From the NCBI GenBank assembly GCA_014859345.1, contig JACUUL010000022.1, positions 1 through 32,834 on the forward strand: 32,834 nt of DNA. The letters are read 5' to 3'. The notes beneath the pieces were generated by a model that was not told the origin of the DNA, searched no databases, and worked only from the letters and a program-made list of their open reading frames with translations. This stretch comes from Thermoleophilia bacterium. Its GTDB lineage: Bacteria > Actinomycetota > Thermoleophilia > BMS3ABIN01. Below, in pieces: positions 2,786-17,008 of this stretch. How positions within the stretch are numbered: the first letter of the stretch is position 1; each line of letters starts with the position of its first letter. The position numbers were made by a program, and so were the translations under genes.

Positions 2786-3223
2786 CTACTCGAATCCCAG
2801 GTACGCCAGCAAGGACAGGAACACCGCCGTCAACACTCCCAGCGCGCCGATCGTATGAACCACCAGCCTGCCGTAAGTGTACTTTGAATACCAATTGTAC
2901 GTAAGCGGAAACAGCATGAGCAATGGCGGGAAGATCAGGAACGAAAAAATGATTCCCGCGTCCTTGGGCACGTACTTAAGAATCTGAAATACGGCCAGAA
3001 AGTACCATTCCGGCTTGATTCCCGGAGGTGTCCTCAACGGGTCGGCCGGCTCTCCCATGGGCATGGGCATCAGCGTGGCCAGGAACCACAGGATCGCAGC
3101 CACCAGCGCCATGACCGACATCTCCTTTACGAAATGGTCGGGAAAGAAAGGAACCCCGCCCTTCTGGTGTTCCTCCGGCGAAGTCTCGCGCCGCTCAGGT
3201 TGATTCATGTTATCGCTCCTCAT
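2786..3223 (-). CDS. Cytochrome b C-terminal domain / subunit IV (PetD-like)
   Basis: IKPEWYFLAVFQILKYVPKDAG contains the PEWY Qo-site motif; about three TM segments. Confidence 0.9.
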   Translation of the reverse strand: MRSDNMNQPERRETSPEEHQKGGVPFFPDHFVKEMSVMALVAAILWFLATLMPMPMGEPADPLRTPPGIKPEWYFLAVFQILKYVPKDAGIIFSFLIFPPLLMLFPLTYNWYSKYTYGRLVVHTIGALGVLTAVFLSLLAYLGFE

Positions 3224-3233
3224 ACACCCGCCC

Positions 3234-3890
3234 CTATAACGGCTCGGAGATGCCCTGCTTGCGAATCATCACGAAATGAAGCACCAGGAACAACGACAGG
3301 ACAACCGGCAGAATTATCACGTGAATCGTGTAAAACCTGGTAAGGGTGGCATCTGATATCCTCTCCCCGCCCATAAGAAATACCTGCACGTAAGAGCCCA
3401 CGAACGGCATGGCGCCGGCGATCTCGGTGCCGACCTTGGTGGCCCAGTATGCAAGCTGGTTCATCGGCAGCAGATAGCCCGAGAAGCCGAAAGTGATGGT
3501 CATAAAGAACAGGAGCACGCCAGTGAGCCAGTTCATTTCCCGGGGCGGCCGGTAGGCTCCGTGAAAGAAGACCCTGAGCATGTGGATGATCACCATGATG
3601 ATCATGATGTTGGCCGTCCAGGCATGAAGGCTCCGCACGATCGCCCCGTAGGGAACTTCTTCCATGATGAAGAGGACGCTGCTGTAGGCGTCATCCATGG
3701 TAGGCTGATAATAAAAAGCCAGCAGGATGCCTGTGAAGGCCTGGATCAGAAAGCATAGAAATGTGATGCCGCCGAAGCAATAGAGCCAGTTGACATGATC
3801 TGGTACATTGTGGTCAGCAAACTCCCTGAGCACCCGCCGCATCTCAAAGCGCTCGTCAAAGAAATCACCAATCGCTTTAAAGGGCCTCAT
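3234..3890 (-). CDS. Cytochrome b6-type N-terminal subunit
   Basis: Heme His pairs in SLHAWTANIMIIMVIIHML and HVIILPVVLSLFLVLH; NWLYCFGGITF carries the Cys that binds heme ci in b6-type cytochromes; ATGA overlap with the Rieske stop. Confidence 0.92.
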   Translation of the reverse strand: MRPFKAIGDFFDERFEMRRVLREFADHNVPDHVNWLYCFGGITFLCFLIQAFTGILLAFYYQPTMDDAYSSVLFIMEEVPYGAIVRSLHAWTANIMIIMVIIHMLRVFFHGAYRPPREMNWLTGVLLFFMTITFGFSGYLLPMNQLAYWATKVGTEIAGAMPFVGSYVQVFLMGGERISDATLTRFYTIHVIILPVVLSLFLVLHFVMIRKQGISEPL

Positions 3891-4363
3891 GATTCGATCC
3901 CTTCCACAAATATGCCCCCGTTCTCGACAGCGATTGTGAACCTGTTCAGCGGCCGTGGCGGCGGTCCGGAGATCACTTCCCCGTCCTCGTCAAAAAAGCC
4001 CGCGTGGCATGGACATTTGAATTCACGGTCTATGGCGTCCCATCTGACTATGCAGCCCAGATGCGTGCATACCAGCGAGAAGGCGGCAAAACTCCCGTCC
4101 TGCTTCTGAATCAGCATGCCGGGCACCTCCTGGTATTCGAACCGCACGCCCTCGGGCGTGATATCCTCGACGCTGGCCAGCCGCAGCCGTTCAAAAACCG
4201 GCCCTGTCACAACCGGGTAGGCAAACCGCACGAGCGGCGCCAGAAAAGCCCCCAGTCCAATGGCGCTGGCTGCCGCGAACAGCGTGGTAAGGAAACGGCG
4301 GCGGGTGATCTGCGCCCGCGACTCCTCCTTTTGCTTCTCTTCGATAGTGGTTTGATCACTCAC
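3887..4363 (-). CDS. Rieske [2Fe-2S] protein
   Basis: CTHLGC and CPCHAGFF cluster motifs; N-terminal RRRFLTTLFAAASAIG TAT/TM anchor. I prefer the GTG start at 4363 (VSDQTT) over the upstream ATG at 4393. Confidence 0.92.
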   Translation of the reverse strand: MSDQTTIEEKQKEESRAQITRRRFLTTLFAAASAIGLGAFLAPLVRFAYPVVTGPVFERLRLASVEDITPEGVRFEYQEVPGMLIQKQDGSFAAFSLVCTHLGCIVRWDAIDREFKCPCHAGFFDEDGEVISGPPPRPLNRFTIAVENGGIFVEGIES

Positions 4364-5534
4364 GTCCGGACAATCTCCTTCGTCGGGGTACAAGCACTCC
4401 CTGGTGGAACAGGAATATCAACAGGCTGGCGCTGGCCAGCATATAAGCGATCCAGAGCGTGGCCGGCCCTATCTGGCGCGCTCCGGTCTCTACCTGCAAG
4501 ACGTCGGTAAAGAGCTTATATACGGCATAAACATTGGTAGCCAGCACCGCGGCAGCGGCAATCAGTGCCGGCCAGCCCTCGAACAAGAACCGTTTGGCCT
4601 TGGGATAGGGCAATATTGTTACAAGGAAGATACCGATCACCAGGCCGAACATGGCCAGAGGGAACGCGCTGGTCCGCTGGGTCTCAGGCGTGGCGGCGAA
4701 CAGGGGCTCGGACGGAAAGTGGCAACTCTTGCAGGTTCTGTCAACAGTCGGCTCCTGGTGGCATACCAGGCAGGTATCCCTTTCTATCGCGTCATACATC
4801 ACGCCATCGATGACACCGGGCGCTTTGGATACCCGCCAATGCTGGTTCTTCCAGATCGAGGTGTCTATCTTGGGCACGCCGGGATGTTCCCGGCCCGATA
4901 GCGGAATCTCGCCAAACAGGATAGGCGCGATATCCCCGGCGTGGCAACTGCCACAAAATTCAGGCGTATTGTCAGCCTGGGGCCTGCCCTGGATGAGGTC
5001 AGTGCCGTGCACCACCGCCGAGTGGCATTCAGCGCAGGAAATTTGCGCGTCCACCACGTGGAAATCATGCGGAAACCCGATTACATTCTCCGGCCTTTCC
5101 GTATCCGTAACGATAATCCTGGGATACGATGGATGTTCGCGGTCGACGACGTTGGTGCTGTCCTCGAAGTTGGGACGCGGGTCGCTCCCGTGACATTCCA
5201 GGCATGAGGTGCTCGTAAGAAGCTCTGCCGAGGGCGGCGGCGTCTCGTACCTGTGTATCGCGAACTCGGTCAGCTTCATGAGGGAATAGATCTTGCCGCG
5301 AGTGAAACCGATGACCCCGGGTTCGAAATGACAGTCTATGCAGGTTACGCTTCGATCGCCGCTTAGGCCGCCCCCCATAAGGGACTGGCTCCAGGTTTCC
5401 ACATAAGGCTCGATTATATGACAGCTACTGCAAAAACCGGGCCTGTTAGTGTAATCGATCCCCCAGACTGTGACCCCGACTATCGCCACCAGCAGCACGG
5501 CCAGTGCCACGGCCAGAATGGACCTGCCGTTCAA
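4356..5534 (-). CDS. NapC/NirT-like heptaheme c-type cytochrome with C-terminal TM segments (bc-complex partner)
   Basis: Seven CxxCH motifs (CSSCH, CIDCH, CLECH, CAECH, CGSCH, CLVCH, CKSCH); N-terminal anchor; three predicted C-terminal TM helices; start appears to be TTG. Confidence 0.88.
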   Translation of the reverse strand: MNGRSILAVALAVLLVAIVGVTVWGIDYTNRPGFCSSCHIIEPYVETWSQSLMGGGLSGDRSVTCIDCHFEPGVIGFTRGKIYSLMKLTEFAIHRYETPPPSAELLTSTSCLECHGSDPRPNFEDSTNVVDREHPSYPRIIVTDTERPENVIGFPHDFHVVDAQISCAECHSAVVHGTDLIQGRPQADNTPEFCGSCHAGDIAPILFGEIPLSGREHPGVPKIDTSIWKNQHWRVSKAPGVIDGVMYDAIERDTCLVCHQEPTVDRTCKSCHFPSEPLFAATPETQRTSAFPLAMFGLVIGIFLVTILPYPKAKRFLFEGWPALIAAAAVLATNVYAVYKLFTDVLQVETGARQIGPATLWIAYMLASASLLIFLFHQGVLVPRRRRLSGRE

Positions 5535-8740: not shown

Positions 8741-9943
8741 CTAACGCGTGTAGCCACCAGCCGGGTCCCTGCGGGCAAGTCCCATAAGCTCCAGGGTCAC
8801 CAGAGCCGCGCCGGAACGGGCGCCGCTCAGACCCGTTTTCCGGGAAAGCGCGTCTTGGTGAACCGGCCTGACGTCCAGAGCCTCAAGGATTAACCGCTCA
8901 TCCGGCCCCAGGTCATGAGACGCCGCCGAAGAACCGTTTTCATGGCCAGACGGCGGCCTCCCACAGGCAGTATCCAGACCCAGATCCTCGAGCACGTCGT
9001 CCGCGCCGGCTATGGCCGGCGCGCCCACGCGCATCAGCCGGTGCGGGCCCCTGGACAGATCCGAGAAGATGCTGCCCGGCACCGCCCAAACCTCCCGCCC
9101 CTGCTCCAGGGAAAATTCCGCCGTGATCAGGGCTCCGCTTCTTTCCCTGGCCTCGACCACGACGACGCCGTCGGCCAGTCCGGATATAATCCGGTTGCGG
9201 GCCGGAAAACGCCAGGAGCGCGGTTCCTCGCCCGGCGGATATTCCGTCACAATGGCGCCATATTCGACTATCTGACGGTAAAGAGCAGTGTTTGACCGGG
9301 GATAGATCACATCAGCTCCCCCGCCGAGTACCGCTACGGTGCCGCCGTTTCCGGCTCTGACTGCTCCCTCGTGGGCGGCGGCGTCGATGCCCCGGGCCAT
9401 GCCGCTGATCACGCAAACCCCGGCCATTGAGAGGTCTCCCGCGATCACCCTGGCGGCGTCCAGTCCATACCGGGATGCGTCCCGGGCTCCGACTATGGCC
9501 ACCCGGGGCCGTTTCATGAAACCTTCGAGCTTTGTAATCGATCCCCGGACAAACAGCGCCGGCGGCGGGTCATGGATGCGGGCGAGGCGGGAAGGATACG
9601 CGGCATCCCCCAGCGCCACCAGTTCGATATCTTTTTCCTTCAATTCCTTATAGGCAGCCACAGGCCTGAATTCTTTCCGGAAAGTCAGGAGGCCGCAGGC
9701 CGCGGCATGCCCCACACCCAGCATGCGAACAAGCGCCTCGTCAGAGCTCTCCCAAATCTCCCTGGGCGTCATGCTCGCGGTAGGAATCCTGAGAGGCCAT
9801 CCGTGAGACGCCAACATGCAGGCAAGCCCCAGGGCGGCGGCGCGTTCGGGCCTCAGGTAATCACGGCGGTCAAGCCGGCCGTCCTCGCGACTGGAATTTG
9901 AGAGACGGCTGCTTTCGTCACTGCTGCCACCCTCAACGGCCAT
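8741..9943 (-). CDS. dprA: DNA-processing protein DprA/Smf
   Basis: VAIVGARDASRYGLDAARVIAGDLSMAGVCVISGMARGIDAAAHEGAV, EYPPGEEPRSWRFPARNRIISGLADGVVVVEA; start MAVEGG overlaps the comM end. Confidence 0.93.
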   Translation of the reverse strand: MAVEGGSSDESSRLSNSSREDGRLDRRDYLRPERAAALGLACMLASHGWPLRIPTASMTPREIWESSDEALVRMLGVGHAAACGLLTFRKEFRPVAAYKELKEKDIELVALGDAAYPSRLARIHDPPPALFVRGSITKLEGFMKRPRVAIVGARDASRYGLDAARVIAGDLSMAGVCVISGMARGIDAAAHEGAVRAGNGGTVAVLGGGADVIYPRSNTALYRQIVEYGAIVTEYPPGEEPRSWRFPARNRIISGLADGVVVVEARERSGALITAEFSLEQGREVWAVPGSIFSDLSRGPHRLMRVGAPAIAGADDVLEDLGLDTACGRPPSGHENGSSAASHDLGPDERLILEALDVRPVHQDALSRKTGLSGARSGAALVTLELMGLARRDPAGGYTR

Positions 9944-11468
9944 TCCATCCCCGTCTGTCGATGCTCCTGTAGCTGATGGCCTCGGCCAGGTGGGCCGCGT
10001 CCAGCTCGTCCCGGCCGTCAAGATCGGCTATGGTCCGGGCCACCTTGAGAATCCGCTGGTGGGCGCGGGCGCTCAGGCCCAGCCGCTCCACGGCGCTTTC
10101 CAGCATCGCCATGGCGGTGCCGGTTAAAGGGCAGTGGCGGCTGGTCTGGCGCGATCCCATCTGCGCATTAAAGAAGATGTCCGTTCCGGCCAGCCTCGCT
10201 GTCTGGATTTTCCTGGCTCCGGCCACCCTTGCCGCAACCGCCGCAGAAGACTCGCTCCGGGAGGCAGACAGCAGTTCTCTCTTTGTGAGCGCCGGCACTT
10301 CCACCGCCACGTCGATCCGGTCCAGCAGAGGTCCGCTCAGGCGGGATCGGTATGTCATCACCTTTTGTGGCGGGCACAGGCATTGGTTCTGGGGATTGCC
10401 CAGATGACCGCAGGGACAGGGGTTCATCGCCGCCACCAGCATGAACCTTGCCGGGTAGCTGACTGACGCCAGCGCCCGGGAGATGGTGACCGCGCCGTCT
10501 TCGACCGGCTGGCGAAGAGCCTCCAGCGCCAGCCGGGAAAACTCGGGCAGCTCGTCAAGGAAAAGCACGCCCATGTGCGCGAGGCTGACCTCGCCCGGCC
10601 GCGGGGTCCGCCCCCCGCCTGCCAGCCCCACGTGCGAGATGGTGTGATGCGGGGACCTGAAGGGACGGGTGCTGATCAGCGGGCTGCCGTCCAGCAGGCC
10701 GGCGACGCTGTAAATCCTGGTCACCTCGATGGCTTCGCCGATCTGAAGCGGAGGCAGGATTGACGGTAGGCGCCTGGCCAGCATTGTCTTGCCCGAGCCA
10801 GGCGGGCCGATCATCAGCAGGTTGTGGCCACCCGCGGCGCAGACCTCGAGAGCCCGGCGGGCGTGCTGCTGCCCCTTGACCTCGGACAGGTCCGGATGAT
10901 GGCCGTTGCCTCCGGAAAGCAGGGAGGCGGTATCCACCGGTACGGGCTCAATGGACAGTTCACCCCGGAAAAAAGCGGCAGCTTGACCCAGATCGCGGAC
11001 GCCTATCACTTCCAGGCCGTCAACCAGGGCCGCCTCGCGGGCGTTGACTGCCGGCAGCACGATGCCTTTATAACCTGCCTGCCGGGCGCCTTCGGCGATG
11101 GACAGGGCGCCGTTTATGCGGCGGACACCTCCATCCAGCGATAGCTCCCCCACAACGCTGTATTCGGAAAGCAACCCGGACTTCAGCTGGTCAGAGGCCG
11201 CCAGCACCGACAGGGCGATGGGCAGGTCAAAGGCGGGACCCTCCTTGCGCACATCGGCAGGCGCCAGATTGACGGTAATACGCCTCAGGGGAAATTCGTA
11301 TCCGGAGTTGGCGATCCCGGCTCGCACCCGCTCCCGGGCCTCGCGCACGGCTACATCGGGGAGGCCCACCACGCTGAAGGCCGGCAGCCCCCAGCCCAGA
11401 TCGGTCTCCACTTCCACGGGACATGCATCCATGCCCAGAACAGCATGGCTTTGCAACCGGGCCAGCAT
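9933..11468 (-). CDS. comM: Mg-chelatase-like AAA+ ATPase, YifB/ComM family
   Basis: NLLMIGPPGSGKTMLARRLPSILPPL, LFLDELPEFSRLALEALRQPVEDG, MNPCPCGHLG. Confidence 0.95.
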   Translation of the reverse strand: MLARLQSHAVLGMDACPVEVETDLGWGLPAFSVVGLPDVAVREARERVRAGIANSGYEFPLRRITVNLAPADVRKEGPAFDLPIALSVLAASDQLKSGLLSEYSVVGELSLDGGVRRINGALSIAEGARQAGYKGIVLPAVNAREAALVDGLEVIGVRDLGQAAAFFRGELSIEPVPVDTASLLSGGNGHHPDLSEVKGQQHARRALEVCAAGGHNLLMIGPPGSGKTMLARRLPSILPPLQIGEAIEVTRIYSVAGLLDGSPLISTRPFRSPHHTISHVGLAGGGRTPRPGEVSLAHMGVLFLDELPEFSRLALEALRQPVEDGAVTISRALASVSYPARFMLVAAMNPCPCGHLGNPQNQCLCPPQKVMTYRSRLSGPLLDRIDVAVEVPALTKRELLSASRSESSAAVAARVAGARKIQTARLAGTDIFFNAQMGSRQTSRHCPLTGTAMAMLESAVERLGLSARAHQRILKVARTIADLDGRDELDAAHLAEAISYRSIDRRGWNGR

Positions 11469-11659
11469 GCGTCATCACTCCTTTTTTCCGGAGGGATGCT
11501 TCCGCGGCGGGGACGGCAGACAGTTAAAGCGGGATTGTCAGGCTACCAGAAAACGCTGCCGGGGGAAAGCCGGCTCACTTTTTCCGGGCATCATAAGCGG
11601 AACGCCATGATGGAAGCAGCTGGCTGCAATCAGATGTAAAACGAGAAAAGGTCTCCAAT

Positions 11660-11693
11660 CCAGGGCCCGACGGGCAAGTTCGGGTCACCCTGG
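11660..11693. other. Inverted repeat/hairpin
   Basis: CCAGGGCCCGA / TCGGGtcaCCCTGG: 11 paired bases with a 3-nt bulge, in the intergenic space upstream of comM. Confidence 0.6.
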
Positions 11694-11710
11694 CCGCACC
11701 GCGCTGAGTG

Positions 11711-11758
11711 AAAACGAGAGGGGGACGGTCCCCGGCCGGGGACCGTCCCCCTCGTTTT
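11711..11758. repeat. Large REP-like palindrome, possible bidirectional terminator
   Basis: AAAACGAGAGGGGGACGGTCCCCGGCCGGGGACCGTCCCCCTCGTTTT: near-perfect ~23-bp inverted repeat (2-nt bulge) with A-run and T-run flanks; each arm carries GGGGACGGTCCCC. Confidence 0.85.
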
Positions 11759-11776
11759 GCTCTTTACGCGGCCGCC

Positions 11777-11908
11777 TTATCCTTCAGGCTGGCCCGGAAC
11801 CGCTACGCTACACTGCCAGTCGGGACACTCGAACGTGACGTCCCTCAGGTTCTCATGCCTGACGAGAACCGGCTTGGCATAGGGTTCCCGCGTTTTCCTG
11901 GTCTTCAT
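11777..11908 (-). CDS. Putative RiPP precursor-like peptide with lasso-type leader pattern (43 aa)
   Basis: Hand translation MKTRKTREPYAKPVLVRHENLRDVTFECPDWQCSVAVPGQPEG; AGGAGA upstream; YxxPxLxxHxxLxxxT leader pattern then short CPDWQC segment. Confidence 0.6.
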   Translation of the reverse strand: MKTRKTREPYAKPVLVRHENLRDVTFECPDWQCSVAVPGQPEG

Positions 11909-11959
11909 GCGGTCTCTCCTATGTTCGTCGATCATGATACTGGCTATCCCTTATCCTGC

Positions 11960-14900
11960 CTAGGGATATGTGTAGCCGTTTCCATCACAGTCCTCGGCGG
12001 AGCCGCTGACACTGGTCTTGAACGACGTTACGCCTCCCGGCACATCATACTTGACCGTGGCGGTGGCGCTGGTGCCGCCGGCGATATCGCCCACGCTGAC
12101 CGGAGTGGCGCTGATCAGCGATACTCCGTTCGTGGCGGTGGCGCCGGTGAGGGCCACGTTATAGGCCGTGTCAGCGCCGGTGTTGCCGACCTTGAGGTCA
12201 ACAGACAGCTCGCGCGCCGTGTAGTCGGCATAGCTGGCCCAGTAGACGTTGTCGGCTGCCAGATTCAGATCCGGCTGGCCGATAATGCCACAGCTGGCTG
12301 GGGTGGTGAAGCTGAACTCGGCGCTCTCGGCGCCATTGGCCCAGCCGTCGTAGGAGGTCACCTTGACGTAGTAGGTGGTGCCCTCTGCCAGACCCGTCAG
12401 GCTCACGGTCTTGTCGGCGTTAAGCACGGTGTCGTTGACGACATCCGTGTAGACGCCAGAAGCCGTGCCGTACTCCACCTTCATGGTGGCCGGCTCGTCC
12501 GCCACGCGGCTGATGTCGGCGCTGCTGGTTGTCACGTTGCTGGCCGACGGCGCCGTGGTTATGTTCGGCGCGTTGGTCTTCATCTTGGCGGGCGCACTCA
12601 GGCCGGCGGTGCTCAGCAGCGGCAGGTCGGCGCCGATGGCGAACTGCTGCTCGCCCTCGCTGCTGTTCCAGCGGGGGATGCCCCTGTTTATGAAGCCGCC
12701 GGGTATCAGGTCGTAGCCCAGCATCTTCAGGCCGATGTTGGTCATGCCGGCATGCTGGCTTCTGGAGACGATGACGGTTGACTTCAGCGGATCGAGGTTG
12801 CCGAGGCCGGCAGGGGTAAACAGCTCGTTGATCGGCACCTGGATGTTGTCGCCGTCGGTGCTGATGGTGCTTACCGCACCGGTCCTGACGTCCACCGACT
12901 GTTGGGCGCCGGCGATGGTGGCAATGTCGCTCTGGCCGTTGCCGACGTTGCCCAGGGTGGAGGCGATGGCCCAATTGGCCTTGCAGCGCACCAGCTCGGC
13001 GTCGGTGGCCGCCGACTCGCATTCAGGCGGCGGAGAAGTCGTGGGCAGGCTGAACCCTGCCGACGCCTCAGGCGCGCCGATGGGGTTGCTGGTGTCAAAC
13101 GCGCCCGGCAGGCCGTTGGTCCAGCCGATGCGTGAGTACTCCAGCTCGTAGACGTTAGGCGTAAGCGAACTGTCACTCGCCAGCACGCCCGGGACCTGGG
13201 CCAGGATGCCGAAGCCGCCTGAGGCCGGACCCGCGGTGTGTGAGGTGTTGCAGTAGACGACGATGTCGGTGGAGAAGCCGGCCGCCTCATGGGCGTCCAC
13301 CAGCTCTTTCACAGTATCGAGCGACGACTGCGAGTAACAGTCCTCATCATTGTTCCAGCGACAGCGGAAGCTGGTCCCCGGTATGATGTGGCTCTGCTGG
13401 CTCAGGTTATCGATAAGCACCGGGCGGTTGGCGGCGTCGTCGCCTTCGCCGAGCACGCCGGTGACGCCGTCGCATATGTCGCCCGAGCCGGCTGATATCG
13501 GCTGGTTGGTGCAGTCGAGCCCGGCCATGTCCTTGTTGGAGTCGAGCGCGTCGTGCAGGTCCTGCTTGCCGTAGATGATGCCGGCCTCGCCGTCCCTGTC
13601 CGGATCGAACTGCGGGCCGCTCCAGTAGGCCTCGATGTAGCCCCGCACCCTCTCCCACTGGCTGTCGAGAGTGGTGAGGCTGAACTCGGCGCCGCTCTCG
13701 GCGCCGTTGGCCCAGCCGTCGTAGGAGGTCACCTTGACGTAGTAGGTGGTCCCCGGCGTGAGGCCGGTGAGGCCCACCGTCTTGTCGGCGTTGAGCACGG
13801 TGTCGTTGACGACATCCGTGTAGACGCCAGAAGCGGTGCCGTACTCGACCTTCATGGTGGCCGGCTCATCGGCCACACGGCTGATGTCGGCGCTGGTCTC
13901 GGTGATGTTGCTGGCCGACGGCGCCGTGGTTATGTTCGGCGGCGTGGTGTCGACCAGGGACGCCAGACCGTCGCCGACAGCCTCCTGCAGCGGCAGGCTG
14001 TCGCCAATGGCGCTCTGCATCTCGCCCTCGGTGTTGTTCCAGTAGGAGATGCCGTGCCGGATGAAGCCGCCGGGTATCATATCGTAGCCGAGCATCTTCA
14101 GGCCCATGGCGGCCTGGCCGCCGTGCTGCGACACGGGGACGACGACGGTCGACTTCGACGGATCGAGGTTGCTCAGGCCAGCGGGGGTAAACAGCGTCCC
14201 TATCGGTATCTGGAGGTTGTCGCCGGCGGTGCTGATGGTGTTTATCGGCGTGGCGGCCCTGGTGTCCACCGACTGGCCGGCGCCGTCAACGGTGTCGAGG
14301 TTCGTCTGGCCGGAGCCGACGTTGCCGGCATCGGACTTAATGGACCATTCGGCCACGCAGCGCACCAGCTCTTCGTCGGTAGCGGCCGATGTGCAGGCGC
14401 TCGGCGCCCAGCCGGTGGCGGGGGCGCTGAAGCCGCCCGTCGACGTGTCGGGCGCACCGATGTCTCTGGTGTTGGTGAACGGGTCCTGCACCTGGTTGAT
14501 CCAGCCGACGCGGGACCACTCTATTTCGTAGACCTGGGGCGTCAGCGAGGGATCGCTCGCCAGGGCGCCGGGGACCTGGGCGAGGACGCCGAAGCCCGCC
14601 GTGGTCGGAGACGACGTGTGGGAAGTGTTGCAGTGGGCGAGGATGTCGGTGCTAAAGCCGGCCTCCTGGTGGCGGTCGACGAGGTCCTTTACTGCCGCGA
14701 CCGACGACTCGGTAAAGCAGTTGCCGCCGTCAGCGCCGCCGCTCCAGCGGCACCTGAAGCTCGTCCCCGGGATATGGTGGGCATTCTGCGACAGGTTGTC
14801 GATGATCACCGGCCGGTTGGCGGCGTCGTCGCCCTCATCGAGCACGCCGTCGATCGTGGTGAACGTGGCGGTAGCGAACGTTCGCTCGCCTGGGGCGGTG

Positions 14901-15154
14901 TTGCTCATGTCGCCGTTGGAGTCGATCGCGTTCCGCAGGTCCTCCTTCGGGAAAATGAGGTTCCCCGTGCCCGTCGCGTCACCGTCCCACTGGCCGCTGA
15001 AGTACGCCTCTATGTAACCCCGCACCGTTTCCCACTGGCTCGTGTCGAGCGCCCCGGCTTTCTGGACGCTGGCGCCCACAAATACGGATACAGCGATCAG
15101 CAATCCTAGAAGGACGATCGCCACTTTGAATAAAACGTTAGAACTTGCTTGCAT
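11960..15154 (-). CDS. Exported modular protein: duplicated rhodanese-like regions, two FN3 domains, CARDB/DUF11-like C-terminal domain
   Basis: N-terminal VLFKVAIVLLGLLIAVSVFVGASVQKAGA signal; RPVIIDNLSQNAHHIPGTSF and RPVLIDNLSQQSHIIPGTSF; HCNTSHTS and YCNTSHTA loops; two near-identical NITTAPSASN...SYDGWANGAES FN3-like segments; C-terminal PDLNLAADNVYWASYADYTARELSVDLKVGNTGADTAYNV. Confidence 0.75.
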   Translation of the reverse strand: MQASSNVLFKVAIVLLGLLIAVSVFVGASVQKAGALDTSQWETVRGYIEAYFSGQWDGDATGTGNLIFPKEDLRNAIDSNGDMSNTAPGERTFATATFTTIDGVLDEGDDAANRPVIIDNLSQNAHHIPGTSFRCRWSGGADGGNCFTESSVAAVKDLVDRHQEAGFSTDILAHCNTSHTSSPTTAGFGVLAQVPGALASDPSLTPQVYEIEWSRVGWINQVQDPFTNTRDIGAPDTSTGGFSAPATGWAPSACTSAATDEELVRCVAEWSIKSDAGNVGSGQTNLDTVDGAGQSVDTRAATPINTISTAGDNLQIPIGTLFTPAGLSNLDPSKSTVVVPVSQHGGQAAMGLKMLGYDMIPGGFIRHGISYWNNTEGEMQSAIGDSLPLQEAVGDGLASLVDTTPPNITTAPSASNITETSADISRVADEPATMKVEYGTASGVYTDVVNDTVLNADKTVGLTGLTPGTTYYVKVTSYDGWANGAESGAEFSLTTLDSQWERVRGYIEAYWSGPQFDPDRDGEAGIIYGKQDLHDALDSNKDMAGLDCTNQPISAGSGDICDGVTGVLGEGDDAANRPVLIDNLSQQSHIIPGTSFRCRWNNDEDCYSQSSLDTVKELVDAHEAAGFSTDIVVYCNTSHTAGPASGGFGILAQVPGVLASDSSLTPNVYELEYSRIGWTNGLPGAFDTSNPIGAPEASAGFSLPTTSPPPECESAATDAELVRCKANWAIASTLGNVGNGQSDIATIAGAQQSVDVRTGAVSTISTDGDNIQVPINELFTPAGLGNLDPLKSTVIVSRSQHAGMTNIGLKMLGYDLIPGGFINRGIPRWNSSEGEQQFAIGADLPLLSTAGLSAPAKMKTNAPNITTAPSASNVTTSSADISRVADEPATMKVEYGTASGVYTDVVNDTVLNADKTVSLTGLAEGTTYYVKVTSYDGWANGAESAEFSFTTPASCGIIGQPDLNLAADNVYWASYADYTARELSVDLKVGNTGADTAYNVALTGATATNGVSLISATPVSVGDIAGGTSATATVKYDVPGGVTSFKTSVSGSAEDCDGNGYTYP

Positions 15155-15188
15155 ACCTTTCTCCCTCCTAATTCCCCTGTGGATGTGA

Positions 15189-15243
15189 CCGGCATTTCAA
15201 ATGCCTGCTTTTTAGCAGGCGCCCTTGCCGGTTCCCCCTTGGC
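15189..15243 (-). promoter_or_regulatory. Stacked hairpins in the 5' leader of the 1064-aa gene
   Basis: On the minus strand ACCGGCA...TGCCGGT encloses GCCTGCT-AAA-AGCAGGC, which spans the last codons and stop of the 21-aa ORF. Confidence 0.5.
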
Positions 15244-15277
15244 AGGTCCCCTTACTTGCACATCTTTTATCCTTCAT
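15212..15277 (-). CDS. Short Cys-containing ORF (21 aa), candidate leader peptide or small peptide
   Basis: Hand translation MKDKRCASKGTCQGGTGKGAC; GGAGGG ribosome-binding-like sequence before the ATG. Confidence 0.4.
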   Translation of the reverse strand: MKDKRCASKGTCQGGTGKGAC

Positions 15278-15386
15278 CTGTCCCTCCGTTTACCTTGCCA
15301 AGAGTTTGAGGCTCTTTAATCCAAGCCCATAAAATCAGCTCCTTTCCCTAAATCACACTTCATCCGGAAACTGGCCATAAAAATAA

Positions 15387-15422
15387 AAACCCCAGGCAGG
15401 ACGCATTGCTCTGCCTGGGAGC
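15387..15422 (-). terminator. Rho-independent terminator-like hairpin
   Basis: Minus strand CCCAGGCAGagcaatgcgtcCTGCCTGGGGTTTTTATTTTT: 9-bp GC-rich stem then T-rich tail. Confidence 0.75.
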
Positions 15423-15700
15423 CACTAAAAACAGCTGTTATTGTTTTGTGCCACTGACCAACCCGCCTAGATATGAAGGGACTTATGCCAGTCGATAATA
15501 GTTATATCAATCAGTCAGGTATCAAAAATTGTCGGTTTACGCGGAGACGCCTCTCCAACCAAACGCATAATTCTGGTATAAGCTACTCTTTAAAATCTCG
15601 ATAATATCCAGCGGCCCGATAAAGTTTAAAATCTGCTTATTTCCTGACAATCTTAATCAAATTTCTCTTAATTACTACATTCTGTAACATGAATTCAAGA

Positions 15701-15727
15701 TTAATACAATGGGAAAGCTTTTGTCAA
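15701..15727 (-). promoter_or_regulatory. Candidate promoter (TTGACA ... TATTAA)
   Basis: Perfect TTGACA at 15727-15722 and TATTAA at 15706-15701; spacer 15 nt (17 to an alternative TTAATC). Confidence 0.35.
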
Positions 15728-15798
15728 TATTTTCTTGGTTGATTTATGAGTAATTATGAGTTGCTGGAGACATCCAGAAAAATGCCTGGCGATGGTTT

Positions 15799-16215
15799 TT
15801 ACCGGAAAGCATCTTCCATATGGCGCACATCGATCAGAGAGCCCTCGGCGTCGAAAAGTACGGAGATTATGTCAAAGCGGAATACGCAGTCGCGCAGGGA
15901 TGGATCTGACTGGTGCGCGGCCACCCACATGAGAGCCATGCGGCGGATCTGGCTCTGCTTGCGAAGGCCCACCGATTCGAACGGCTCTCCGAAGCTTTTG
16001 CTGCGGCGGGCCTTGACCTCGATGAAGGCGACGGTCCTGCCGCGACGGGCGATGATGTCTATCTCGCCATAGCGGCTGCGGTAGTTGGCATGGAGAATCC
16101 CGTAGCCCTGTATCTCGAGATACGCGCCGGCCAGGGCTTCGCCGGCGCGGCCCCGCTGGCGCCTCTGGTCTGACGGGATGTTTGCGGCTGGCCCGGATGC
16201 TCCTTTGTCAGGCAT
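15799..16215 (-). CDS. YraN/UPF0102 family nuclease-like protein
   Basis: GRAGEALAGAYLEIQGYGILHANYRSRYGEIDIIARRGRTVAFIEVKAR; probable start MPDKGAS, ORF extends upstream to 16341. Confidence 0.87.
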   Translation of the reverse strand: MPDKGASGPAANIPSDQRRQRGRAGEALAGAYLEIQGYGILHANYRSRYGEIDIIARRGRTVAFIEVKARRSKSFGEPFESVGLRKQSQIRRMALMWVAAHQSDPSLRDCVFRFDIISVLFDAEGSLIDVRHMEDAFR

Positions 16216-16306
16216 GTGACCGTATCCAGAGGCAGCGCCTCCTGTGCCTCGCGGGCCCTTTCTTTTCCTGTCCTTTCCTCCTGACTTGCCGCGCCCAGCA
16301 GCAATG

Positions 16307-17008
16307 TCATTCAAGCTCCACCTGATCAGGGTACCCGGCAACAGGGCTCTTCAGGCTGAAGGAGAGCCGGTGCAGTCCGCAGTACCCATGCCTGGAGATG
16401 GCTTCGCGATGTTCCCGGGTGGCATAACCCACATGGCGGTCGAAACCGTACTCCGGATAGAAGCCGGCAAGCCTGCGCATGACCCGGTCGCGCGCGACTT
16501 TGGCTATTACAGAGGCCGCCGCGATACAGGCGCTGCGGTCATCGCCGCCGGTGACAGGCCGGTGGGGGACGGCACAATCCGGCAGCTGTTGACGCCCGTC
16601 CACCAGCACCACCTCCGGCCAGGGATCCAGCACCTCTATGCTCCGGCAGAGAGAATCGAGATTCGTGTTGTGAAGCCCCATTTCATCGATGGTCCGGTTT
16701 CCGGAGATAATGATGGAAAAGCGGGAGGCAGAGCGCGTTATCAGTGGATAGAGCCGCTCCCTCGCAGGCGCGCTCAATTTTTTCGAATCAGCAAGGCCGG
16801 CCATCAACCTGGCAAACTTGCGGGGTTCCCGCACCGAGTAGTCAAATACCACAGCCGCCACCACCAGCGGCCCTGCCAGGCAACCGCGCCCGGCTTCGTC
16901 CGCGCCGGCGATCTCCCGGTCTCCGCAAAACTCGCGATCGAATTTAAACAGTCCGATCGAGGAATATCCGGATTTTTTCGCTCGCTTCAAAGGTGATTCA
17001 GAGACCAT
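16307..17008 (-). CDS. rnhB: Ribonuclease HII
   Basis: IAGADEAGRGCLAGPLVVAAVVF, VLVDGRQQLPD, YPEYGFDRHVGYATREHREAI. Confidence 0.95.
   Translation of the reverse strand: MVSESPLKRAKKSGYSSIGLFKFDREFCGDREIAGADEAGRGCLAGPLVVAAVVFDYSVREPRKFARLMAGLADSKKLSAPARERLYPLITRSASRFSIIISGNRTIDEMGLHNTNLDSLCRSIEVLDPWPEVVLVDGRQQLPDCAVPHRPVTGGDDRSACIAAASVIAKVARDRVMRRLAGFYPEYGFDRHVGYATREHREAISRHGYCGLHRLSFSLKSPVAGYPDQVELE

Follow-up and report, generated by a model that had tools for sequence, protein, structure and literature searches.

The window, a stretch of 32,834 nucleotides from a Thermoleophilia bacterium, carries on its minus strand a 43-aa precursor ORF (11777–11908) with the exact translation MKTRKTREPYAKPVLVRHENLRDVTFECPDWQCSVAVPGQPEG, followed by the stop codon. 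The peptide consists of a basic N-terminus, a leader (YAKPVLVRHENLRDVT, residues 10–25) and a core (FECPDWQCSVAVPGQPEG), and direct reading of the sequence places a Shine-Dalgarno-like AGGAG (11916–11920, minus strand) 7 nt 5' of its ATG. The peptide gene is the second and last of a two-gene unit that adjoins comM, and a bidirectional terminator-like hairpin of 16 pairs (11718–11753) lies 3' of it. The first gene of the unit (11960–15154, minus strand), the stop of which is located 51 nt before the peptide ATG, codes for a protein of 1064 aa that appears to begin with a signal peptide and contains an internally duplicated region of about 400 aa, fn3-like domains and a shared C-terminal domain (CTD) of about 106 aa (11963–12280, minus strand, ending in GNGYTYP and the stop), which has an Ig-like beta sandwich fold and ranked top of 29 matches in the genome. 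The duplicated region belongs to no known family; it contains C-N-T-S-H-T motifs and appeared rhodanese-like by eye. A segment comprising CTD, intergenic region and peptide (11773–12493) is shared with contig C56 of the same genome, with 89.6% identity over 729 bp by blastn, and this match reaches the end of C56. The earlier note had seen no maturation system at the peptide gene, which was borne out: the B1 and B2 proteins are encoded far away (see below). Elsewhere in the window (2786–5534), genes for a cytochrome b-like protein, a NapC/NirT protein and a cytochrome c7 multihaem protein probably constitute a respiratory unit.

A peptide family with a lasso-type leader and a nearly constant core

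The genome to which the window belongs comprises 2.08 Mb in 122 contigs and is listed as 100% complete; searching it revealed 8 homologous peptide ORFs. A profile built from these 8 copies (A1), when run against 399 genomes of the class, matched 19 genomes, all of which belong to the window's family, represent seven genera and contain 4–12 peptides each; no match was found in the remaining 380 genomes. As a search restricted to the family returned the same 19 genomes, all family members covered here carry the peptide. The named relatives are Thermoleophilia/Gaiellales metagenome bins. Across the phylum, just three leader-only matches (E about 1e-3) were obtained, all in another family, and a motif scan of these three loci found no such peptide ORF. 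A codon comparison of 59 distinct members of the window's type (type 1) gave a pN/pS of 0.24, with third codon positions accounting for 58% of the differences, so that the absence of coding conservation, which the earlier note had named as the outcome speaking against its proposal, was not seen. The 8 copies in the genome, the presence in 19/19 family genomes and the pN/pS of 0.24 place the ORF far beyond chance, and together with the exact translation and the AGGAG they confirm it as a real gene.

Among the type-1 members, the core (E-C-x-x-W-x-C-S-V-x-V-P-x-x-P) and, with it, the entire second half of the peptide (T-F-E-C-P-x-W-Q-C-S-V-x-V-P-x-x-P) are nearly constant: the Thr, both Cys, the Trp, the Ser, the second Val and the Pro are invariant in 59/59 members, and Asn20 is present in 57/59. 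In these 59 members the core was thus no less conserved than the leader, contrary to the conserved leader and variable core that the earlier note had expected from an alignment. A second subtype, reached via weak matches, occurs in the same genomes, e.g. with the leader YERPRLVRLGNIREIT, in which the canonical Gly is present; its core carries W-x-C-S and continues into tails rich in Asp, Gly, His or Ser. When 18 members of both subtypes were aligned, Pro13, Asn20 (18/18), Thr25, Cys33 and Ser34 did not vary, and within W-x-C-S the Ser and Cys were invariant and the Trp nearly so. Subtype 2 loci were located in other family genomes (L164, L165, L169–L171, L173, L174, L176–L178, L180, L181 and L183), most of them with the canonical Gly in the leader, and at three of these (L164, L165 and L170) a CTD gene lies 340–580 nt downstream.

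The lasso leader pattern YxxPxLxxxGxxxxxT is present in the family. The earlier note had recognized the motif correctly and had placed an Asn at the Gly position; this position is in fact Glu19 in the window's peptide (Asp or Glu in type 1, Gly in subtype 2), and Asn20 follows one residue later. When NCBIfam models were searched, the window's peptide matched none, and two other members passed the 'lasso RiPP family leader' model NF033521 (cut-off 19), namely a paralogue in the same genome (19.3 bits) and the subtype 2 peptide L164 (23.2 bits). Through these two members, the comparison with lasso leader models supports a precursor of the RiPP type whose leader is of the lasso type. The own-genome paralogue with the passing leader is located on C38 (L012, C38:42789) and has an intermediate core (TRTAPDWQCSIGPPYGNGIGKGPCDAPGAPWNR).

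A distant cassette encoding an HprK-like kinase, B1 and B2

The own genome contains a single PqqD gene (66.8 bits) and a single lasso-type B2 gene (65.4 bits), which adjoin each other on contig C81; the genes there are arranged as HprK-like kinase, PqqD (B1), B2, DUF2079 membrane protein and methyltransferase. A genome-wide search for a PqqD-like B1 thus found one discrete recognition protein beside B2, and the refutation considered in the earlier note, a genome devoid of any RiPP recognition element (RRE), fails. B2 passed NF033537 (50.4 vs the cut-off of 33 bits); B1 (62.9 vs 80) and the kinase (64.5 vs 200) remained below the curated equivalog cut-offs. The motifs of the kinase (H..GxSGxGKS..DD) and the Cys/His of B2 are intact. 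Throughout the family the HprK-B1-B2 cassette occupies one syntenic site beside hemW-like, hrcA-like and dnaJ-like genes (named from their protein starts), the hemW-like gene being divergent from the cassette. B1 was found in 18/19 family genomes and B2 in 16/19; the three genomes in which B2 was not found are 92, 78 and 69% complete. The closest solved relatives of B1 are the lasso and LPP (linear polyphosphorylated peptide) B1 proteins TbiB1, PbaB1 (9x90), TfuB1 and LppB (9x8z), and in an ungapped alignment Asp74 and Asn37 of B1 correspond to Asp70 and Asn33 of LppB, which hold the leader Tyr and Pro, with Asp70 bonding the Tyr (PMC13381572). Leader-like small ORFs were not enriched near the cassette (65 found vs 87 expected from shuffles), which points to the scattered peptide family as the natural substrate; a cassette-local precursor was rejected, as no leader-like ORF rose above chance. 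No exporter was identified for the peptide system.

Genes adjoining the peptides

Across the family, 44 of the 56 genes that directly precede a type-1 peptide code for secreted proteins with the CTD at their C-terminus, and in the own genome 7 of the 8 peptides adjoin the CTD-encoding end of a gene for a secreted protein. The N-terminal parts of these proteins differ and include rhodanese, EB_dh and beta-propellers, and at three loci in two genomes the CTD instead forms the N-terminus of the protein encoded downstream, its coding region still adjoining the peptide. Independent placement would give the 7/8 adjacency a probability of about 1e-19, a figure tempered by shared duplication, which is an evident cause of non-random placement: the units on C93 and C56 have a CTD and peptide block in common; the adjacency may in part reflect duplication of one ancestral unit. 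The CTD is confined to the window's family save for one match among the 380 other genomes, and displays weak similarity to CARDB/DUF11. Its Ig-like sandwich was predicted by AlphaFold with a mean pLDDT of 96; by sequence it matched no solved structure, and the hits of a fold search were Ig-like sandwiches of a general kind (TRAP-beta, COPI and adaptin appendages), with no E-value of 0.001 or below. About 19 CTD proteins of the own genome had no peptide detected alongside, and a peptide-profile search beside these remaining CTD genes found none, which indicates that the partnership is not obligatory and that the CTD can do without the peptide. Conversely, a type-1 peptide stands alone, with no CTD neighbour, at a syntenic hemC-like site in five genomes (L085, L087, L088, L093 and L096). 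In a genome of another genus (L098, G012 C1), the interval between comM and UPF0102-rnhB (cf. 9933–17008 of the window) contains the peptide and lacks a large CTD gene, which shows that at this site the peptide can be maintained by itself.

Eleven genomes, among them the own (C56), have a second gene for an HprK-like kinase just 3' of a type-1 peptide gene, a direct connection between the peptide family and the chemistry of phosphorylation. The gene order at these loci is secreted CTD protein, peptide, lipoprotein and kinase, and several loci add another CTD protein and peptide. In 11/11 genomes the C-terminal tail of the lipoprotein (L009:829–1443; homologues L068–L083) reads GW..GGIxIxVPxxP or differs from it slightly. 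This tail resembles the end of the peptide core, W-x-C-S-V-x-V-P-x-x-P, a likeness that was noticed by post hoc comparison and hence carries no statistical result; at the level of sequence it suggests that the lipoprotein tail and the peptide core meet the same partner.

Proposed product and related systems

We propose that the peptides are precursors of a linear, kinase-modified RiPP produced by lasso enzymes minus the one that closes the loop and acting with the neighbouring surface proteins, a reading to which we assign a probability of roughly 0.6. The leader (YxxPxL...T) would be bound by the sole PqqD-type B1 of C81, and the conserved binding residues of this protein make such an interaction with the window-type leader highly probable. 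The HprK-like kinase, encoded on C81 and in a second copy beside a sister peptide on C56, would phosphorylate the core, the likeliest acceptor being the Ser of W-x-C-S; by analogy with LPP and Bsf (see below) we give this site about an even chance. B2 would then cut the leader off near the conserved Thr, and cleavage close to Thr25 is likely. No macrolactam step would take place, and a single trans-acting cassette would serve at least 8 scattered precursors. The short, beta-prone and Pro-rich product (CSVxVPxxP) would work at the envelope with the CTD proteins encoded alongside and with the lipoprotein bearing the look-alike tail; action on the CTD proteins, for which gene order argues, is plausible at somewhat less than even odds. 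A further-reaching and rather doubtful version is that lasso-derived machinery has been recruited for envelope assembly. In this version a single cassette acting in the cytoplasm would modify and trim many scattered short peptides, each linear product would be the dedicated ligand of the adjoining protein's CTD or serve it as a plug or an additional strand, and the core-mimicking lipoprotein would act as an anchor or as a competitor for the same site. Taken together, the gene content suggests that these genes form a hitherto undescribed peptide system by which the cell surface is built or marked.

The association with secreted proteins could also be mere inheritance, i.e. the same machinery would produce a RiPP unrelated to the secreted proteins, and the adjacency would stem from a duplicated CTD-peptide unit. 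This is in line with the single 729-bp block in which C93 and C56 share CTD and peptide, with the about 19 CTD genes of the own genome that have no peptide neighbour, and with the peptides that have no CTD neighbour. We consider it unlikely, however, since the N-terminal parts of the partner proteins are unrelated, the order is reversed in the two genomes with an N-terminal CTD such that the peptide adjoins the CTD either way, and the adjacency has been kept over several genera.

A cross-link involving W-x-C (Trp-Cys or other), introduced by a radical SAM/SPASM or other enzyme with B2 removing the leader and the kinase being secondary, would account for the nearly invariant Trp and Cys of W-x-C-S in both subtypes. 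The own genome has radical SAM/SPASM genes, and in one relative (G104, L151) two peptides lie about 12 kb away from a radical SAM/SPASM–PqqD–HprK-like triad. Yet family-wide the cassette and the peptides are without a radical SAM gene save the divergent hemW-like one, and the triad was seen complete in one genome only, which makes such a product distinctly improbable. The triad (L151:6778–9095) is ScmC-like and lies near pyruvate:ferredoxin oxidoreductase-like genes; parts of it were also observed in G006 (L152).

The lasso peptide named in the earlier note was not supported, although its recognition of an unannotated precursor with a lasso-type leader stands. Lasso rings require an Asp or Glu at core position 7–9 (PMC10368454), and counted from Thr = -2 such a residue is absent in 59/59 type-1 members, many of which contain no acidic residue at all after Glu27. 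An asparagine-synthetase-like cyclase is likewise absent from the HprK-B1-B2 cassette. The leader, B1 and B2 are of the lasso kind, and a true lasso would need a cyclase acting in trans, for example an asparagine synthase homologue on contig C92 (L026, 13571–15451) that starts with MSG and has lost the catalytic Cys2. The two asparagine synthase homologues on C92 score well below the lasso-cyclase cut-off of 525 bits (234 and 253 bits) and are found in a sugar/radical-SAM locus; the Cys2-less one, at 253 bits, fits an EPS/PEP-CTERM amidotransferase model better (445 bits). In addition, G006, a 98% complete draft genome with 11 peptides, B1, B2 and the kinase, has no asparagine synthase homologue at E<=1e-15. 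With both ring acceptor and cyclase missing, a lasso product was rejected, and even its in trans version is very unlikely; it is strongly indicated that no macrolactam is formed, and the peptide product is most probably linear. Two further structures were considered and rejected: a ring between Asn20 and Glu27, both nearly constant in type 1, as Glu27 is missing in subtype 2, and a two-Cys metal knuckle, as the first Cys is missing in subtype 2 and in L008. A reading in which the ORF encodes no RiPP but a small conserved peptide of structural or regulatory function, the resemblance of one half to a leader being a coincidence, would agree with the window's peptide matching no RiPP model and with a core conservation unusual for a RiPP, but has only the slightest chance of being correct given the two paralogues that pass the lasso-leader model, the kinase adjoining the peptide in 11 genomes and the B1 kept throughout the family with its Tyr-binding Asp.

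For the linear, kinase-modified product proposed here, the closest described system is that of the linear polyphosphorylated peptides, which combines an RRE and a kinase without a cyclase and is represented by lppAKBSDN of Paenibacillus alginolyticus (Popov et al. 2026, PMC13381572); in a literature search for lasso-like systems without a cyclase, this paper alone was useful. Both systems have a YxxP leader, a discrete PqqD-type RRE, an HprK-like kinase, no macrolactam cyclase and an expected linear product. They differ in the leader peptidase, which is a SipW-like signal peptidase in LPP and a lasso-type B2 cysteine peptidase in the present family, where no SipW-like signal peptidase was noticed among the genes of the cassettes, B2 being present instead. 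In LPP the precursor genes are part of the cluster and the peptides vary at their C-termini, whereas those described here are scattered with a nearly constant core, and LPP clusters occur in Bacillota near capsule genes, whereas the present genes belong to one actinobacterial family and lie beside genes for secreted proteins with a common domain. At the leader-core border, LPP has FETxxS, the Ser3 of which is (poly)phosphorylated; here the sequence is T-F-E-C-x-x-W-x-C-S, with the invariant Ser 9 residues after the Thr. The leader motif, the split B1/B2 and the catalytic motif of the HprK-like kinase are also shared with the phosphorylated lasso peptides paeninodin, pseudomycoidin and Bsf of Bradymonas (PMC10368454), in contrast to which the present cassette is without a cyclase and a precursor, and the peptides are without an acidic ring acceptor. 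In the HPr-rel-A/SynChlorMet-type systems of NCBIfam (TIGR04352, TIGR04249 and TIGR04248), an HprK-related kinase adjoins a PqqD-family chaperone as it does here, but all scores against these models were below the curated cut-offs and the present cassette has no radical SAM maturase. In prochlorosin biosynthesis, ProcM acts on many distant ProcA precursors, and the present family likewise has a single maturation set and many unlinked precursor genes; prochlorosins differ in their lanthipeptide chemistry, their diverse cores and their other leader and enzymes.

We know of no biological role for LPP or for the phosphorylated lasso peptides. The present machinery is family-wide, not mobile-looking, equipped with many scattered fixed-core precursors and tied gene by gene to secreted proteins, features that together point to a RiPP with a house-keeping function related to the surface. 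Among RiPPs of the lasso/LPP kind the family represents a new form, set apart by its scattered precursors, fixed core and link to surface proteins. Precursors of 40–45 codons, which fall under ORF cut-offs and lie distant from their enzymes, escape cluster-based RiPP mining. A last likeness to LPP concerns an NTP_transf_5 enzyme, which accompanies the kinase in phosphorylated lasso clusters (PMC10368454) and in LPP clusters (PMC13381572) and which in the present family was seen in just two genomes, where it replaces B2 after HprK-PqqD (L148:7516–10408 and L149:255–3196); one of these genomes carries B2-DUF2079 about 20 kb away (L150).
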